Assembly (NCBI GenBank): GCA_963662155.1
Contig: OY759269.1
Span: 14,709,142-14,773,141, forward strand
Origin: Lamellibrachia columna
Taxonomy: Eukaryota > Annelida > Polychaeta > Sabellida > Siboglinidae
Reading direction: 5' to 3'
Length of the DNA stretch: 64,000 nt
Positions 12,357 to 39,200 of this stretch are shown one piece after another. Position numbers and translations under genes: made by a program. The notes beneath the pieces were generated by a model that had not been told where the DNA came from, made no database searches, and saw only the letters and a program-made list of their open reading frames with translations. Position 1 is the stretch's first letter, and each line of letters opens with the position of its first letter.

Positions 12357-12434
12357 TATATAACATCATACGCACGCACGCACGCGCGCACGCACGCGCG
12401 CGCGTGCATGCGTGTGTGTGTATGATGTTATATA
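12357..12434. repeat. Inverted repeat flanking alternating purine-pyrimidine core
   Basis: TATATAACATCATA (12357-12370) is mirrored by TATGATGTTATATA (12421-12434). The 50-bp core is GCAC/GCGC/GTGT, itself nearly self-complementary and of Z-DNA-prone type. Confidence 0.9.
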
Positions 12435-12509
<75 letters not shown>

Positions 12510-12514
12510 CATAC

Positions 12515-12650
<136 letters not shown>

Positions 12651-13062
12651 TCCTGTAGCTATGATAGTTTTCCACAGGGCGGTAATAGTATGTAGGTTGT
12701 ATGTAGTAGTTAGGGACCTATAGTACTATGCACACTTTAGCAAGTACATCAAAAACACATTCTGCGTTGTCTACAAGAAAACATTAAATTTATGTTAATA
12801 ATAGCCATTAATTCAATACTCAATAAAATTTTATAGTGTCTACTTATAATATGTTGGTCTCTTAAATATTTATTTATGTTGAAGTTTTCATTTATATTCA
12901 GATAAAGTCATTATTCATTTTAGTACTCGAGCGAGTTTATTTCGAGACGTCATGCAAGTTGCAGGGGTAGATATTTACAAAGCACACTTGTTTCATGGGA
13001 TTCGCGCTTTTCTACTTGCAAGATAATTTGTAGTAAATTGTTATCGTATCAACACAGTTATC

Positions 13063-16000
13063 ATGAATTTAGTCGACCAGATCAAGATTCTTTATGAATC
13101 AAAACTTTTTGTCGACGTAAAATTAGCGGTAAATGCAATACTTTGCTAGCAATTGTGTAATTTGTGTATATGTGCACGCATTATCGCTCACATAATGTTT
13201 CCTGTGCTTTCGTGTGGCCAGTTAATCTTGTTCGAGTGGGAACATTATTTTGCGTTTATACTGGTTACACCTAATTTTGCTGTACTAAGACATTCGCGCT
13301 TCAAGGGTATGGAATGGCAAATGCTCGCAGCATTCACAAAACTTGTCGGTTTGACATGTGACATGATGTGCATTTTTGATGTGTTCCTTTAATTATTGTT
13401 TATATGGTGCTCTAGCGCCTATGAATGTTCAGAAGATGATAAATTTACAAAAAGCTCTGCTTTGCACAGCAAGCGCCCATTTGAACTATTCCCTAATTTT
13501 GTGATATCGAGTATATAATGGTTATGCGATGTCACTATTATTATCAACAAATGCAATGATTTTGACAGGTCGGCATGTAAAGATAGAGTTTTCCATAAAT
13601 GTGGAATTGTCTCTATGCACTCACTTTCTGCACACCGTCAATTTTATAAAGAAATCTTCTTAATGCAATATTTCAGCGCTGTTGATACAAATAGCTTACC
13701 ATACAGTCATACTTCTTAGATTAATATCACTTGTCTGATCTTTATATATCACGTTAAAGAAGCATAAGTGTTTTAGATGCTGCACATTTAGGGATACCAC
13801 AAAACCCAACCAAACAGTACTAAAGGTTACATCAGCTAAACAGCCATTGTTTTTCCAGTGCTGAATGTTTGTCACATCTGTTTTAGACGAGCATTGTTTT
13901 GACGATGTCCGAACATAACGAAGAGTTGCTCACTCCCACCATAAAATACCAAATGCTGGCATTCCAGGGTGAGGCCTTTTATGAGATGGGCGAATACCGC
14001 AGGGCAGAAGTAAGTAATTGTGAGTCACCGTGATGACAAATAGAAATACCATACAAGCTTCTAAGGCACCCAGATGTGGATATATGAAGTGTCTGTGTTT
14101 CTTGCCATTTGTTAAGGACGGTTTACATGAGCGATTTTTTTCTTTTTATATTTATCGCAAGAATCAGTCATGCGAGACCAATTAGCAATGTGAACTACGA
14201 TTGTGGGGAGCGGTGGTCTAATGGTTAGGGCACCCACCTGTTGATCGAGAGAATGGTGGTTCAATTCCACCTCCACCGTTTTGAAACTTGCCTGTGTCTT
14301 TCTGAATAGACACTAAAACCTGTTGGTTCCTTCTAACTGGTGTCTATGCCAGGGAAATTAAAAGATCCCACACAGGGAACTAGAAAAAACATGTCATGGA
14401 CTCATTAACTCTAGAGAAGGACACTCTGAAATAAACCCTCAATGCAATATCCTAGTAGACCTTTGCTGAGTAATTATCCAGGGTGTTGGTGGGTGCTCTC
14501 ATCATGACCTTTCGTCAAAGCTGAAATTGGGATTGGCGCAAGTCAACAGGTCCTACTTGCAGTGTCTAGACATGTGACTCCTCTAAATACACACATGGTT
14601 TACCTGTGCATTGTCATGTGATGCACTGTCGCCCCCACCAGTTGGGGCATTTTGTTTTGTGAAATTATTTGCAATAAGATGCATTGATATATATTAATAT
14701 TTTGCAGGTAGTGCTGGGGAAAGCTCTACAAATGAAGAAGATGATACACAAAGTGAAAGGAAAGACACAGGCATTGGTAAGCTCTGACACTCCTTACCAA
14801 TGTGTGATATGTTTACTGTTTAATCCACCTACACAACAGATTGTTGGTTACAGATATGAAATCTTAGTTTCCAGTCCTGCTTTAAAGGTAAAAATACAAC
14901 ATTTAATTTTGATCAATAAAAAAATAATACAACGTCCTGCTATTGAGACAAGTATAATGTTTGTCATGTTTTTTGATATATGAATAATCACAGTGTGTGA
15001 AAACCAGTCCATCAGATTGATTTCCGAATCAGATCCTGAATGAATTAGCTGCTTGGAAAAGTACTGCAACGTAATAAATGCTGTACTACCATACAGACAA
15101 CAGAAGTTATATTGGGAATACTACCATAGGCAACAGAGCATTTTGTACTATGAACAAGTTTGCGAGTTCAGGAAATGTATCGAGGTAAGCCATTGCTAGT
15201 AATATAACAACACTCAGCGACCACTAATTACTTGGTAGAGCTGGATAATCACAACGAGGTTAATTTATGTATGTTTAACCATACTGGAGGTTATACCAGT
15301 GGAATGTTTGCAGGACATCCCGAGTGAGGTGGAAGTGAAATACATGCTCCACCTCTGTCACTGTCTACTACAGCAACATAAAGAGGCACTGTCCGTGGTG
15401 AGTTACACATGTTGGGATAGGACATGTTGACATCTGCTCATGGAAAAGCGTGAAACACCCTCCCCTCCACTCCGCTGTTGTCGTTTTTAACATGTTTTTT
15501 ACGGGTCACTATTTTGATGTGTTGTTTTCGTTCGCGGTGAACCCACATGTGAGCAATGTGAATCCACTTGAGACCAAAGAAATTAAGTATGCCATTAATG
15601 GCTTTGTGTGTGACACATACCGGGTAGATTGATTTTACCAAGAATTGTTTGTTTTTGAAAATTGGGACAGGTCAGTCAAAAAGCGGGATCAAGGGGGAAA
15701 AGCAGTATTTCCTGCCTTAAAGTGGTAACGTTGACACCCATGGAACTTTCAATAAGGCATCGGTCATTGTCCATGTTCCATCTGGTGTGCGTGTGTAGCT
15801 TTGGATGGCAATCTAGTTAAATCTTGACATTGCAGAAGTGTTTTGCGCTTCAATGGCATTTCTGCATTTTTATTAAACAATATTTCTTTTGTTCAGTTCG
15901 GAAATTATTAAAACGGAACTTCACAACAAAAATAAAGGTCATCGGAAATAATTAAAATGGAATGTCACAACAAAAACAAAGGTCAATTTGGAACAAGGTT

Positions 16001-19000
16001 TTTGACGACCTACCATTTGATGAAACCATTGCTTCACTGTTAGCCAACATGTGTCATACATGTTATAAATAATGTCTATTGTAAAACTGATTACGTACGC
16101 ATTTACCTAAGTAAAACAACCCCTTTAAGAAATTGTAATAAAAAGTATAAAACATTTTGAAACATGTCGCAGTAATGTCACGAGCATATTGCAATGACGT
16201 CACAAACATGACCCGCAGCCGTAGTTTTATTCTTAGCCCATAGATGTTGTACATGTTGTGAAAACTGACAAAGTATCTATGTGAGGTGTTTGTTTGCAGT
16301 TAGAGGGGGTGAGTTCGAAGCAGAGAACAGCCAAGATCAACATGGCCCTGGCCAAGCTCTACCAGCGAATGGGGCAGGATCGGTCAGCCGTGACTGCCTT
16401 CAAGGAGGTGCTCAGGTTAGTCAGGGAAAAATCAAAAAGCCACTTTTTTAAATCCATATTTTTTACTTGAAATTCTGTATAATGCCAAATAAATCTGTAT
16501 AAAGATACAAATTCGAGAGTTGAAGATATCATGTACCAAAGCATTGATTGATATTACTGTGATAACGGTGTGTATCCTGAGATTTTGCAAATATAGTTAT
16601 CATGAACTTGCGAACTACCAAATTATTCTGCCTGGAGGATGGGTAATTTTGCTAGTATACATAATAAAATGTTATCAACTGGAAAACCTGATTAATGTGA
16701 TGATGTCTGGTTTCCCGACTTTCTAGGAAATTATGTTTCATTGTATGTTTCATGAGTACGCTTGAAAAAAATTGTGCCATGGAAAAATGTAAAGGAATCT
16801 GTTTTTATAAACGTACATCAAACTCTGTTTCTCTAGACATTAATTAAGGTAACTGTTTATCACCAATGGTGTCATTTGGGGACTAGTGTAGAACAACTGA
16901 CGAGTTGTGCCAACTGCTTAACACAAGATAGTGAAATTATTCAGTTGTTCTACACTAGGCAAATCACAATAATTATGGATCCTGCTAATTAAAAAAGGGG
17001 GTGTATGCTAAATAGGGCATGTATGCTTAATAGATCAAATACGGTAGGTACAATAATCTAAGGCATGTGTTTGACATTTCAGACAGTGCCCCATGTCCTT
17101 GGAGGCCGCGAGAGGTCTCATGGCTTTGGGGGTGAAGAGCGCAGAAGTGTCCGCCCTTATGATGGTCTGTCTACCAGGAGGCAACTCTAGTGAATGGTAA
17201 GGAAAACAGCGGTTTAGTGCCAGGCATGGGATCATCTACAAATTACGTGTGCAAAAATTTACGAAAAACGACCCCCGCCTCCCGCTTCTGTAAATAATGA
17301 TACTGATATTGAACTTCGTACAGTGTCATCATTCACATGATTAAGCTCATCACAAATTAACTTTGTTGATGTTCTAATCTGTAATGTACAGAAATAGGTT
17401 AAGTAATATGTGCAGGTTTATTAAAAGAGTTTCTTTTGTTAAAATCATTGAGAGAATTGATGATTATCAGGTACATTGCAAAAGTTTGAATAGCCTTATG
17501 CTGTAATATATAGCGCTGGACCAATTTTGGCTTTTTTGCCAATTTTTTGTAGATCCGGTAAAAAAATAATTGATTAGATTGTCCGATGATTTCATTAAAC
17601 ATAAATAAAACATTGTCACATGAGCTAGCGTGTCATAGTCGATACTAGATTTTTGCGAAATGAGTCTGTGATGACGTGTGAACAAATCGAACTGAGGATT
17701 GTCTATTTACAAAACTCTGTGTCATCTTCTGTCATATTGCTGCAGGCTGTGTACTTGGATCAAGGGCCAAGGGCTGGCTGCGGCGAGGGAGTTTGTTCCT
17801 GCCACTCAGATGCTTCGAGCACTCGATGTAAAGGTACAGATAGAAGCCTTGTTTTAGTCTTTGTGACTCGTTTAATTATGGCTGTACCTCTGTATCTTGG
17901 TATCAAAGAAATGCCTGCTGAGTTAGTCACAGTGGTATTGTTTTGTGCTTGGGATCTCAGATAGAGAATTGTCTAATATAAACAGGAATTACCCGGTACA
18001 CAGGGATTTTGAATTTACTGTCCATAAATATGCTTTATAAATGTTCCTAAGTATTAAAATAACATACATTGGTTTTATTTAAGGTGCAATAATGAATAAT
18101 TTGTTTAAATAAATGGTAGTAATAAACAGGGTTGCTCCTATGATAGCGACCAAACCTGGTCTTAGTAGGAGTCGCCCAGACCCATCATTTTCTTTTTTAC
18201 ATATTACCTACTATATAATAGATATGAATATACACAAGAATATTGTGTTTTGTTTAATTGAAATTGTCATGGTATTGTATGTATGTAAGTGTATCGATTC
18301 AGTGTATGTATATGATTGTAATTTATGTTACTGTTTTGTTAGTGGTCAAAATAAAGCACACCATTCAATCGGATCTAGATTTTTGAGAGCAGCGGCGTGC
18401 AGGGCCCACCTGCGTGTGGCCATGGTCCGACACTTGCCATTCCAAACCCCATTTATGGGAATATAATACTGGGCTAGACACACTAATTAGCCTCAGTAGG
18501 CAAGACAGTAAACCCTAACAGAAAACTCAGAGAAAGTCCTGAAGGCAGTCTGATATGAAGCTCCTGCAGCCTGGTTCCAATCATTTCTTTGGACTCCACC
18601 GGGGGAGAGTCCAAAGAAATGATTGGAAGCCATTACCTTGTGAGACAAAGGGATGTAGATGGTTCCGTCATTCAATAGTATTTCGTAGGCAACCATCATG
18701 GAATACTGTCAATTGTTAACTTGAGGCACTGCATAAAATATTATCTTATCTGTGAACTGATGCCTGTGCGGCATGCTGCCTTTCAGCCACTGTTACGAGA
18801 CAATGAAGATCTGCTACTGAGCATTGGGGAGGCAAGCTTCCAGAACGGGGACTATGCCGAGGCTCAGGCTACATTCCAAAGGGTACGTCTCCTGGCAGTC
18901 AATGGGCTCAGAGACAGCCACGGATAAGATAAGATCAGTTGTTAATTAAGTTAACCCTCTGCAATTTTTCGTGAAAATGTTCATCAACTTGGTAGAGAAT

Positions 19001-32187: not shown

Positions 32188-35100
32188 ATGGAGAAATATG
32201 TCAGTAAACTGTTCAAGTCATCGACTGATTTAAGGTAAATATATAAGAACAGGTGGTAATGTAGAAACAACCTGCACTCTAGTCTTGCAACAATCCGATT
32301 TAAAACGCAGAACTTGCATAAACGCGAGAATAACACATTATCGCCCATCTTTACAGAGTGCGTGATTTTGATTTGCAAATTCATTGAGATCGTTGCACGT
32401 TATCATAATACCTATAATCAGTAAAACCAAGTATTATTCTTTAATAGTCGAACACATTATAATAAAAGTTTATTTTCAGACAATGTCCACATTATATATA
32501 ATATATATATATATATGTGTGTGTGGCGGCATGAGAAACCCTTCACATGATGGTCAAAATATTATGTTTCTGTTTTTTTCTGACTCAAAGGATTACAGGA
32601 CACTTTCATTTGTCCAAATCGGGCAATTATTAACAGAGATATCACATGTTTAACATCAAAATACAGGTGCGGTTCGAGAAATATGATTCTGAGAAAACGC
32701 TGTGTAAACATTCAGAACAAATATATACGCACAAATACATATGTGCCATATACAAACACTTTATTGTTGGTCATTCTGGACAAATGTCATTTCAATACAA
32801 CATATATACAGTGCATCACATGAACATTCATCGTAATATGGGTTTCTTTGGTCTGTTATTATTATGACATGACAACAGGAATTTTAGATAGAAAAATGGT
32901 CTAAATTTAGAAACGTAACTACGTGCGAAGTACAACTGTTGTCTGTTCAAAAGTTTCGTCTTGATTATGTTTGGTTAGTTATGTCAAGTTAACATGTACA
33001 TCAGAATAACTGCAGTTTCTTAGGTCTGCCACGACATCGAATCTGGCCTCAACCTTGGCCTTGACCTCGGCCTCTGCCTCGACCACAGCCTCTGCCTCGA
33101 CCACGTTTAGGGGGAGGGGATGCAGTGTCATCATCGCTTTCATCACTTGTCGCACTGTCATTCTCAGCAGTTACAGTTCCAGGTTTGGGGACATTTGGTA
33201 ATGGAGTAACCGTCCTGGAATGTTTCTGGAACAAACTGCCTTATTTCTTGGTAGAGAATCTAGAGATACCACTGGCGTTTAGGGTCTAAGCCCTTTGGTT
33301 GGATGACAAGGGGCATACCCGCTACAGGTGGAGCACATTTCACCAATTTCTGTCAACTAACATCTGTGTCTGAAAATTCACGGAGCATTACATCATTACA
33401 ACTTTCTGAATTCAAAGTGGTGGTATTTCTTGATACCTGTCATTCTGTGGAAGAAAGTGGCAAGGTAGGCAGTTCAGTCATAGATCGGAACTATGATGTG
33501 ACCGTCTTCCGTGCCACACAACTGTGGAACATTAACATGGGATGACTGGTTGACAACTTCTGCAATATCATTCAAACAATTGACATCTGTTTTACGATAA
33601 ACACGTTTCATTAACCCAAAACGCCAGTCACAGCTGAATTTAGTATGCCCTGTTAAAAGGAATGAAAGCTTGATGGAATTATGTTTGCCGGTCAAAAACA
33701 CGCCACAGGAGGTACAAAATCATGCATGAGTTTTTGTTTTGGCCAGCACAATTGTCTGCATGAAGATGCACATCTGTCTCCCCTAACCTGTAGTGATCAA
33801 AGTAGTGGTGGAGTAACTGATTCATCAATTAGGAAATTAACCTGCTTTGGAAAAGCTTCACAACATGTGGCGAGAAGTCCACATTTTCTGGGTGTTTTGA
33901 AGTAGATTGGACCTGGCTGGAGGGCCAATTTCAGAACCAGGCGGAAGATTTGCTGAGGCTAGTTTAGTAATGTCTCTGTACAGAGTATGTTCGAGACTGG
34001 CTCGATGCAGATGTATCTCTGCCTCTGATGATTGCGCTTTTCTCGTGATCAGGTAAGTTGGCAGACCGCATGATTCTGCTAGAGTTTTTCTGGCAGTACC
34101 AACACAAGTCAGTGGCAGGTCGCATTGTGGTGACATAGGGCACCAGCTGTTGCCACAAAAGGCGGAACGTGCAAAGAGCTACTTTACGTACTCCACTGAA
34201 CTCACAGGCAGCACAATAGCTATCATACACCTTCTTTTTGCTGCAATTTGAGGGCAACAGTTTCACATCTGTTTTCCAGTGTCTGGGCATTCGACCAGGC
34301 AGGACTATGCAGTGCACTTCTGCAAAATTCAGGATAAAATCAACCACTGTTCTGGTTTCCTGCAGACTTAGGGCATGACGGGGCCTCCGCTTTGAGTTTT
34401 TGTGTACACGAGGTTTAACCCCATTCACCCTGTAATGACTAATCAAGTTGTTCAGCTTGTCTTGCCCTATGTTGAGTAGATACTTAATAGTGTCTCTGCA
34501 GATACAAAACCCATGGAAGTAGAAGTCAGTACGTTGGGTCTTTCGCTGACTTTGTTGCTTTTTACGTGATTTTGATGTCGTCGCTGTCAGGTGCATGCCA
34601 CAAGACGATTTTGCCAAGATGGCAACGTCCAGCTCTTCATGAGATAATTCTAGGAATCTGAGTCGAACATTCTGCAGGTCTTCTGGCTTGAAGTATGTGG
34701 TGCATGGCGCACCACTGTTGTATTTGCAGCTGCATTGAAAAGCCACGTCAGCTGCGTTTTCTGGATCCAGCTCCAACCCGAGGCTGTCAACAAGATTCTC
34801 AATGATTGGTGGCACACCATCGTCACTACTCTCTGACGCATCTGAAATGGATTAAACGAAACACGCTGTTATAAAAAATCTAACTGGTTAACTAAAGCAT
34901 AGTCAGTTGAAGAAACAATTTGAATAGCAATATCACCCTACGTTGAGGGTGACAGATAGTCTTAGACAAAAATATTTTATGGTTAATGGCATCTGGATCT
35001 TGCGACTTATCTGTGAACAAAATTTTCCGCAATTTCACACACCTATAATCAGACCTCACGTCATAATTATATCCTGCCATTGTTATTGTTAATTTGTTGC

Positions 35101-36158
35101 CTTGGTACCACATAAACACATTTAATAAATAAAACGGAATATAGGTAATTTTACTAAAATTTTTATTTAATTTTCAAACATATACATATTAGTACCATAA
35201 AACATAATAGTTATAGTCACTACAATAATTAAACTCACCTTCTTCAACTTCTTGGTCAACATGTGTGATGTTGACATCAGAGCAGGTGCCAGGGATAACG
35301 CCCCTTTCACGATCAGCTGATTCGTTGTCGTTGCTGTCAGTGTCACTTTCCGATAATTCACCATCACTTAAGTCTCTATTTACAAAATAATCACATATCA
35401 CTTCCTTCAGGACGTTGGCTGCAGCAATAGTTCCCGTTCCCATGTTAATGTCTTGGAGTGCATTCAAATGGCGAGTAATCTCTGTCTCTCTGTCAGTATC
35501 TCTGCATACAGCGGAACGTCTCATAGGCGCCGCCATTTTGGTCCTACGACCTGTCAGCTGTCAAACTGTTCTGATGCAGATTAAGATATAATTGATAAAA
35601 TATGAGAATGCTTATCTCATTGAATTAAGTCCTACCACATTTGTACGTATATTACATGGCACGCTGCCAACTCAAATGCCCAAAATTCGGAATACTTATA
35701 CAGAAATCGCCACTCTTCGAAAATGTAAACAAACTAGTACGATGGGTACTCCGGCCATGTGCAAAGAATGTGCTTTCTATGTATTCATGCGCACTATGCT
35801 GTATTCAACAGCAAGGTTCACGGCGGTTCCAATGATGTATGACACACGGGAGTGCAATTAAAATAACCTTGTAACTAAACGCGGCCGAAATAGTACATCT
35901 TTCTATTGTCTTTAGTGGTAATTATTTGGGTAGTGGGCTTGCATAAATATGATAAAACACAGTATAAAACTAACTTTTAGCTGAAATAGTTGATAAATAA
36001 GAAAGTTAAATAGTATTAGAATGTAATTAGGTTAAAAACAAAAATTCGACTTTTTGACCATACATGCCGGTGTTATTTAGCCTGTATCTCAAATTAGCAC
36101 AGCACAACTTCCGACGGGTTTTCTCATGCCGCCACACACACACACATATATATATATA

Positions 36159-36221
<63 letters not shown>

Positions 36222-39200
36222 TTAACATTATTAATTATTATATAAAAATATTAACTGGTGTCAAATTCAACCTATTCCTAAATTCTACCAGAGCTAGTAA
36301 ATATTCGTAATTTTTTTACTCCGTACAACTTTTCTAATAATTTGTTTGCATTGAATTGATGAAGTAGCTGTTAGTGAATTGATATAAATGTTTCTTCATA
36401 TTTGTGTGAAAATGGCATATTCTATTAAGACTAAGTAGGTTGAATTTGACGCCAACTAGTATACATCAAATACAAGTAAATATATGTACATATATGGCAT
36501 TAAAAATACATGTAGAAAGAATAAAAAGTATATATATATATATAATTTAATATAAAAATAAGACAAGTTGTTCATTCTAGCCCTAAATTCTAAAATCTTG
36601 TCGTATACCAAGGCCCAGGGCTCTTGAGATTTGTTTATTTATTTTCACATTTATTCACCAAATAAATTGCATGTGCACGCACGCACGCACGCACACACAC
36701 ACACGTATAAATGTATAAATATTTATAATTTACAAAGTTTATTATGTAAATTACATAATTTATGCAATTTAAGCTATTTATGTACGTTACATAATTTACG
36801 CAATCAAGGTAATCCACATTCATGTTCTTTACATTTCAGTGGGTTGACACATCGCATTATACGCGAGAAGTATCTCGCCCACGTTGGTCAAGAAGAATGC
36901 AGTGCTGACATGAAAGTGAAGCTGAAGACAATAGTTGAGAAGAAGATGATGGAAAGAATGGTAGAAGTAAGGCAGATAATAGTCAAGGCGCATGCCTTTT
37001 GCTTCCAGTGAAAGGAGAGATTTCCAGCCACTGAAAACATGTTTTCAAGGCTATTTGGATCAGTATTAAAAATGCACGCAATAAACATGTTTCATTCTTA
37101 TCTAGGTATATCACTAAAGTTTAGACGATAAACTTGGCTAGTCAGGCATTGATTTTCATTGGAAATTGGTGGGAGTCGACCGAACTCCCACTCTACTTAT
37201 ATTTGGGAGTCTGCATACAAAATGGTTTAAGATTATCTGCTCCCCGGATCAATCCCATGAGGCGCTGTTAAAATTGGCCAGTTTAACATTTGGATTGTCT
37301 TCTAATGCAGGGAGTCACACGGCCTCCTGCCAAGGGCTGTATCATGAATCCAGAATGTGAAACAAGGAGTCAAGGAGTCATTGACCCCTGAAAAAATTTA
37401 AGCCTAATAGTGCAGATCACAGTTTACAAGGTTGCAGACTGTTGCACATACAGGCAGTTGTGCGTGACGACAACTACTCTCGAGTGCCAAATAAAAGTAT
37501 AGGCCAAATAATAGTATAGGGTGGCAAATCGGTCAAATTTAATAATAATATTGTGCCGAATAACAGATTAGGGGAAACAAAATTTCCAAACAAATAATAG
37601 TACAGTGTGACAAAGTCACTAGTATATTTTTTTTTTAGCGCTGAAGCAATTTTTTTACTCGATGTGAAGCCAAGGTGTCCCTAGAAAACTACGCGGATCG
37701 CCATGTATTTTGGGTTTTTTTCCGGCCAAATAAACTTTGTGCACATTCGCGTCACCGCAGATATTGTAACCGCATTTTATTTATATCTGCGAAAAACTGG
37801 GGAATTTTCCGTTTTTAAATTGACATTAAAGTTTTATTGAATTGAATACGCAAGCCCATTTCAGGGGAAACTGTTATGTGGTGATAATGGCGTTTTAACT
37901 AATAATATACCATGTCGAGCGCCCGAGAACTAAGGATTCATGGAAATAGAAATGAAAAAATGCTTCGGGATCAAAATCTAGGATCCTCAGAAGCACAGGA
38001 TCCCGCTAAATTCACGAATCATTCTAAAGGATGAAAACTTAGCTGTCAGAGGGAGCCACATACAGCTCCAGTTGGGAGCAAGTGATTTTGGCGCGAGCGG
38101 TAAACCGCACCGTGGATGATTGATTAGTGCTAGCAATAGGGAGTGAGAGCGATTGCTCTCCTAAAAATTGTACCTTGCATAATTTGCCACAATTATCGGA
38201 GAATATAGGCTGGCACAAGTGTTTAAATTTAATAATAATATAGTGCCAAATAAGGTGCATATAGGGTGGCATTTTTCATAAAATAAATTCACGTATAGGG
38301 ACGCTTTAATCGGCACTCAAGAGTAATTACGAACTTTTACAACGTGAAGGACAAGGATATAATGATGTAATTCACAGTTTCCTGTGGGTGCGAGATGAAG
38401 TGACGTAGGTTGCGCTTAGTATTAAACATCAGTGTTTTGATATGGTCCCTTATCTGAACATTTTCTTTAAACTATTGCAGTATACGCAGTTCATTCCAGA
38501 GTAAACATTCAGCTTTTGATTTTCCATAGAGCAATGCTCAGCGTAGAAGCATTAGTTGATGTGATGCACATTCTCTAGCCACTTTGAATACTAGAGTGGT
38601 TTCAATAAAAGTCCTTGATAAACTAACCATTTTTTCTCCGCCTTTGCTGGAGATACTGTATAATATTCCTGATGAATAACACTTTTCAGGTTGCTGCTGC
38701 GGATTGGAAACAGACGGCCAGCAGAAAGAAGAAGAGAAAGAAAACAGTAGAAACATCTGAAAGTGACGAGTATGTACACAATACACATACAATATGTACA
38801 CAATACATAATATGTACTAGACTTCGGGTCAATTATATTACAAGTAATTGGAAGTGAAACTCCAATTAAAATTCCGGAATTGGAATTGGTCTATTGTTTT
38901 TAAAAGTAATTGGAATTGGTGAAAATGTAATTGGTATTTTCAGTTACTTTTCTATTACTTTTTTCATTTCCATCATGTAACTTTCTAACTCAAATTATTC
39001 ATTAGAAATAATCTATAGAATATTATATGTTGCATATATCATATGTCATTATATACCATAATATACAACAATTAGATAAAGCTGGTCTAAAATATTTGTT
39101 ATTTTTGGCTGTTCGTGTACTTTTATTTTGATGTGGAATTGTAATTGGTTTATTGGAATTTATATTTTTTAGGTGGATATGGAATTTGTAATTGTTTTGG

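Follow-up and report, generated by a model that had tools for sequence, protein, structure and literature searches.

Does a widespread protein domain of unknown function belong to a transposon with ends of its own? The question is raised by a locus in the annelid Lamellibrachia columna, where a preliminary description of a 64,000-nucleotide stretch (assembly GCA_963662155.1, contig OY759269.1, positions 14,709,142 to 14,773,141; the whole stretch is called the window here) had proposed a transposon bounded by terminal inverted repeats (TIRs) and carrying an unclassified transposase-like gene. We found that window positions 32520-36138 are a copy of a cut-and-paste DNA transposon with near-identical inverted ends, and that bacteria too contain elements of this kind, whose ends are similar as judged from sequence, a point new to this analysis. 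We take the locus to be a decayed member of a family of DNA transposons with a single transposase of about 650-750 residues bearing three presumed catalytic aspartates (Asp; DDD), animal and bacterial elements forming one superfamily, and we put the probability of this reading at roughly 0.9.

Inverted ends of the window element

The decayed copy spans 3619 bp (32520-36138, reverse strand), its ends having been assigned at TGTGTGG (32520 and 36138), so that the further TG and TA repeats running outward of both ends fall outside it: (TA)n then TGTG beyond the left TIR (32493-32519) and (CA)n then (TA)n beyond the right one (36139-36217). The left TIR (TGTGTGGCGGCATGAGAAACCC, 32520-32541, forward strand) lies on the 3' side of the gene and the right TIR (TGTGTGGCGGCATGAGAAAACCC, 36116-36138, reverse strand) on its 5' side, with TGTGTGGCGGCATGAGAAA(A)CCC as the consensus of the two. 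Inverted arms of 49 nt (32493-32541 and 36117-36165) are 90% complementary, and the 14-mer GGCGGCATGAGAAA, with up to 3 mismatches allowed, matches twice in the window, both times exactly and in opposite orientation. Shuffled sequences gave a mean of 3.4 matches at the same tolerance, which makes the number of matches unremarkable, but not the finding of two exact inverted ones. Together with the recurrence of these TIRs at other copies, described below, the arms and the 14-mers bear out the proposal of a TIR transposon.

Copies elsewhere in the host genome

Comparison of the element DNA with the host genome (879.7 Mb) returned at least 68 matching stretches, the window element counted. We checked 20 of these own-genome stretches for the TIR, tolerating 3 mismatches in 14 positions or 6 in 21, and found it at both ends of five (L046, L051, L053, L054 and L063) and at one end of nine. 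When at most one mismatch is allowed, the host genome contains the pattern TGTGGCGGCATGAGAAA 15 times and the reversed pattern once; 13 of the 15 matches lie at copy ends (the window's two counted), the one in L078 does not, and the one in L072 is ambiguous.

The window element and L046 (G000:C9:10776733-10780422) share 93% identity over 2.2 kb and 86% over 1.5 kb, gaps included. A relative from the protein search (P0002) is 99.8% identical to L046 and thus probably comes from the same species. Three copies (L051, L053 and L054) are shortened to 1.3-2.1 kb, and open frames of 756, 661 and 738 residues are present in L061, L063 and L064, that of L063 lacking the N-terminal part; the DNA of these three is 71-77% identical to one another. 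Since L063 and the truncated copies in L065 are about 98% identical in their common parts, this lineage moved or duplicated recently. An inverted duplication of 8.7 kb makes up positions 1-8664 of L065; it matches its reverse complement at 99.4% identity and contains two truncated copies of the L063 type, each cut off at a (TA)n run.

The encoded protein

A protein search with the read-through product of the window gene returned 538 relatives, and the named organisms among the 120 listed are mostly molluscs and fishes, plus a sponge and a crinoid. When eight proteins were compared with Pfam, DUF7869 alone scored over its cut-off, and no rve, Tc1/mariner or other known DDE family did so. Three Asp residues are conserved in the animal and bacterial proteins, usually 78 and 41 residues apart, and in predicted models the animal and the bacterial proteins alike have an RNase H-like core similar to those of retroviral integrases and Mos1. 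The core is predicted around the DNCAGQNKN block, where the preliminary description had proposed to look for such a fold. From the conserved Asp residues and the predicted fold, we read DUF7869 as a putative DDD transposase domain. The elements thus combine features of DDE/D TIR transposons, namely TIRs at both ends, three conserved acidic residues and an RNase H-like domain as predicted.

Bacterial relatives and a shared TIR pattern

Bacterial homologues, among them one in the cultured Desulfocicer vacuolatum, are full-length, with 33% identity over 572 columns. Scanning bacterial and archaeal genomes by pattern yielded 12 confirmed loci, and the domain is rare: counting the starting genomes, it was found in 1 of 297 genomes of a phylum, 7 of 389 of an order and 2 of 42 of the order of a Thiomargarita. 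Inverted repeats surround the gene in nine bacterial copies (L001, L002, L004, L005, L006, L007, L008, L011 and L091), the best being that of D. vacuolatum DSM 3385 (L004; 43/43 bp). The same search gave no convincing pair in L003, L009, L010, L012 or L093; one end bearing the motif is visible in L003 and in L010. As a control, random placements with comparable geometry were scored, and 21 of 822 reached at least 26 (the element itself excluded); the five highest were all in L001 and came from a different inverted repeat. This contig (Desulfobacterales HSG2) holds, at about 12400-16700, another strong inverted repeat (score 67.5) that is possibly a different insertion element.

Two loci (L091 and L093) are distant bacterial relatives, 23 and 26% identical to the Desulfocicer protein, in which the motif patterns mostly fail; L091 has an inverted-repeat pair of 42 bp. 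Two scans of viral contigs gave no confirmed relative, the Desulfocicer protein was not found in plasmid and phage collections, and no NCBIfam model scored over its cut-off for five bacterial proteins.

The ends of animal and bacterial copies follow one pattern. Across 15 two-ended copies (9 bacterial, 6 animal), TG occupies positions 1-2 in 28 of 30 ends and AAA positions 17-19 in 28 of 30, an agreement that is inflated, partly by construction, as the TIR starts of the animal copies, L091 and L007 were placed by spacing. When one end was chosen per element, 14/14 elements fit the pattern.

A careful unrooted tree with 22 rows places the bacterial sequences (nine rows) on one side of a single branch (support 100/99) and the animal sequences on the other. 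In a quick unrooted tree with 48 rows, 23 belonging to no group, 13 bacterial rows lie on one side of a branch (support 99). L009 and L012, both from the assembly of a sponge symbiont, are placed with the animals in the quick tree. Proteins of the fishes Coilia and Morone (P0008 and P0013) group with molluscs in the 22-row tree, apart from that of the fish Misgurnus, a placement that hints at transfer between animal phyla.

Target sites and a proposed mechanism

A TA target had been suggested for the element; as a TA target duplication this is not supported. The outer 30 bp consist of at least 60% TA/AT dinucleotides at 6 of 21 animal ends, which stem from 4 insertions; among 30-bp pieces taken from the window the figure is 1%. 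(TA)n flanks are therefore over-represented, yet they are not required, because L051, L054, L064 and L065 show insertion without them. With the ends as assigned, TA is found on both sides of 1 of 14 two-ended copies and an exact repeat of at least 4 bp in 1 of 14, in both cases L046, where it lies within (TA)n; allowing up to 4 bases of slack adds repeats in L006 (6 bp) and L091 (4 bp). L063 has (TA)n on either side and is thus uninformative on duplication. The (TA)n run that holds L046 (around 601 and 4290 of that locus) is itself the centre of a longer palindrome, which suggests that the target is hairpin or cruciform DNA.

We propose that autonomous members encode a single transposase made up of a Cys-containing, probably DNA-binding, N-terminal part and an RNase H-like DDD domain, the catalytic domain being the DUF7869 region with a usual spacing of D-78-D-41-D. 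This protein would bind the inner TIR block TGAGAAAACC, pair the two ends and cut at 5'-TG...CA-3', and insertion would take place in A/T-rich DNA, often (TA)n. A wider proposal, which taken as a whole we hold only tentatively and at somewhat less than even odds, is that DUF7869 serves as catalytic domain for an unnamed DDD transposon superfamily of bacteria and animals, with a TIR grammar of TG followed by AAAAC at positions 17-21, no target duplication and a preference for (TA)n or A/T palindromes, and that animals may have gained it once from bacteria and then passed it between phyla.

Evidence against and alternative explanations

Besides the inflated agreement among TIRs, several results weigh against a single family of transposons with common ends. 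Three ends depart from the pattern (L007 right, L053 left and L063 right), and two of the bacterial inverted repeats score barely above 26 (L001, 26.5; L007, 26.0). The link between gene and TIR extends to the 14 of 20 own-genome stretches with a TIR at one or both ends, but none was found in the other six (L050, L052 and L056-L059), some of the 20 ending short of the element's far end and L059 being partly masked. No empty site was found, and the 14 two-ended copies show no consistent target duplication; for the Desulfocicer copy, the search met no second full copy of the left flank in that genome. The frame on the left flank of L001 and of L004 seems, by eye, not to resume on the right, so these may not be clean insertions, as if a deletion had accompanied or followed insertion. 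Foldseek, taken alone, gave no match at E ≤ 0.001, its rows against the PDB being only weak ones to Argonaute, NurA, TnsB and MutS, and a PDB sequence search with query A1 gave no match.

We considered four other explanations of these data. Both ends of the window element adjoin TG and TA repeats, as would be expected if two microsatellites framed an unrelated pseudogene by chance; this has a negligible probability, as the non-repetitive core bounds other copies, several of them without microsatellite flanks (the outer flanks of the L051, L054 and L055 ends), and TIRs made of microsatellite alone, which would have undone the preliminary description, were rejected because the core recurs in this way. 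A domesticated host gene, rather than a transposase, might carry an intron and be conserved in many animals as this one is. It is nonetheless very improbable when the window copy is dead, copies bounded by TIRs lie at several places and deleted versions exist.

The rarity of the domain in bacteria and the position of L009 and L012 on the animal side of the tree would fit bacterial loci derived from contamination with animal DNA or acquired recently from animals, which we consider unlikely. The D. vacuolatum copy comes from a named strain, has one uninterrupted open frame and abuts a fragment of an integrase-core (rve) gene of bacterial type, which forms the frame at its left flank; the relatives of its protein are many and diverse; and nine bacterial rows share one side of the 100/99 branch. 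A lineage of the named Sola superfamily, which Pfam does not link to DUF7869, is a possible but doubtful identity. Sola elements, as described in a review (PMC10741241), have DDD transposases, are mostly 2-9 kb long, occur in bacteria and metazoans and make 4-bp duplications. Their size, catalytic triad and host range fit the present elements, but none of the 14 two-ended copies has an exact 4-bp duplication at its assigned ends outside (TA)n.

Structure and decay of the window copy

The transposon copy in the window carries an antisense gene with two exons and one intron, in agreement with the preliminary description, and with a Pfam DUF7869 match. Exon 1 (35239-35536, reverse strand; MAAPMRRS...) ends at a GTGAGT donor and resembles the N-termini of L061 (E 2e-10) and L064 (E 4e-7), which supports the splice model since those frames are single-exon; the phase 1 intron of 397 bp (34842-35238, reverse strand; GTGAGT...TTTCAG) is not shared by these two copies. 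Exon 2 (33000-34841, reverse strand, lower end approximate) is a remnant with at least four frame changes and several stops. A deletion of about 80 bp relative to L046 (at 33920-33922, reverse strand) has removed the coding DNA of HYSFDFAQQ, the block that holds the first presumed catalytic Asp, while the second (DNCAGQNKN, 33730-33756) and third (GHTKFSCD, 33627-33650, inside the DUF7869 match) are retained on the reverse strand; by itself, this window piece matches DUF7869 with 25.9 bits, the cut-off being 26. An Arg-Gly-rich tail (KRGRGRG..., 33052-33108, reverse strand) is labelled AT-hook-like by eye.

The motif series reported earlier, LPGRMPRHW, TDLCWYCQ, DNCAGQNKN and TGHTKFSCDWRFGL, is present in full; it does not form one frame, TGHTKFSCDWRFGL being in a different frame from the other three, and PIYFKTPRKC lies between the motif blocks in a third. 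The gene is dead, with its conserved blocks spread over three frames, stops between them and the first-Asp block lost, a state that had gone unremarked. Because that block and the reading frame are gone, the window copy cannot move itself. A PHROGs search with two window pieces gave no match, and RFX_DNA_binding matches in a window piece and in L063 were weak and under the cut-off.

A host gene (ATG at 32188, GT at 32235, acceptor ending at 36839) that is plausibly HIRIP3 holds the element in an intron; a Pfam scan of three of its exon frames gave nothing over the cut-off, which speaks neither for nor against this name. Adjoining the element, at 36247-36462, is a small inverted-repeat unit resembling a miniature inverted-repeat transposable element, with arms AACTGGTGTCAAATTCAACCTA and TAGGTTGAATTTGACGCCAACTAG recognized by eye.

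Relation to known systems

PF25273 (DUF7869), which animal and bacterial relatives match over the curated cut-off, is catalogued as of unknown function, and its model covers 192 positions of proteins of about 650 residues; our results offer this widespread domain a testable function, and the element ends can be used for annotating copies in animal genomes. For studying the chemistry, the Desulfocicer element offers a compact system, having perfect 43-bp ends together with an open frame. Searches of the open-licence literature gave nothing relevant on DUF7869, its accession or its motifs, and no title on this protein was among the papers listed on new superfamilies or Sola. Sola is the nearest named kind, likened here by its published description. 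Tc1/mariner elements (Mos1, SETMAR) and retroviral integrases share the predicted catalytic fold and TA-rich insertion sites with the present proteins, but differ in that there is no Pfam or PDB sequence match and that here the third residue is Asp at a spacing of 41; the TA target duplication of Tc1/mariner is not supported here, TA standing on both sides in 1 of 14 copies, within (TA)n. IS3, IS481 and Ginger differ in their rve-type integrase core, which is not recognizable by sequence here. IS481EU, IS3EU, Merlin and Zator are described in PMC10045372 as eukaryotic transposons with bacterial counterparts, and the present elements would add one more such link between bacteria and animals: here too one kind of transposase is found in bacteria and eukaryotes, and the ends, like those of IS3 and IS481, are TG...CA.
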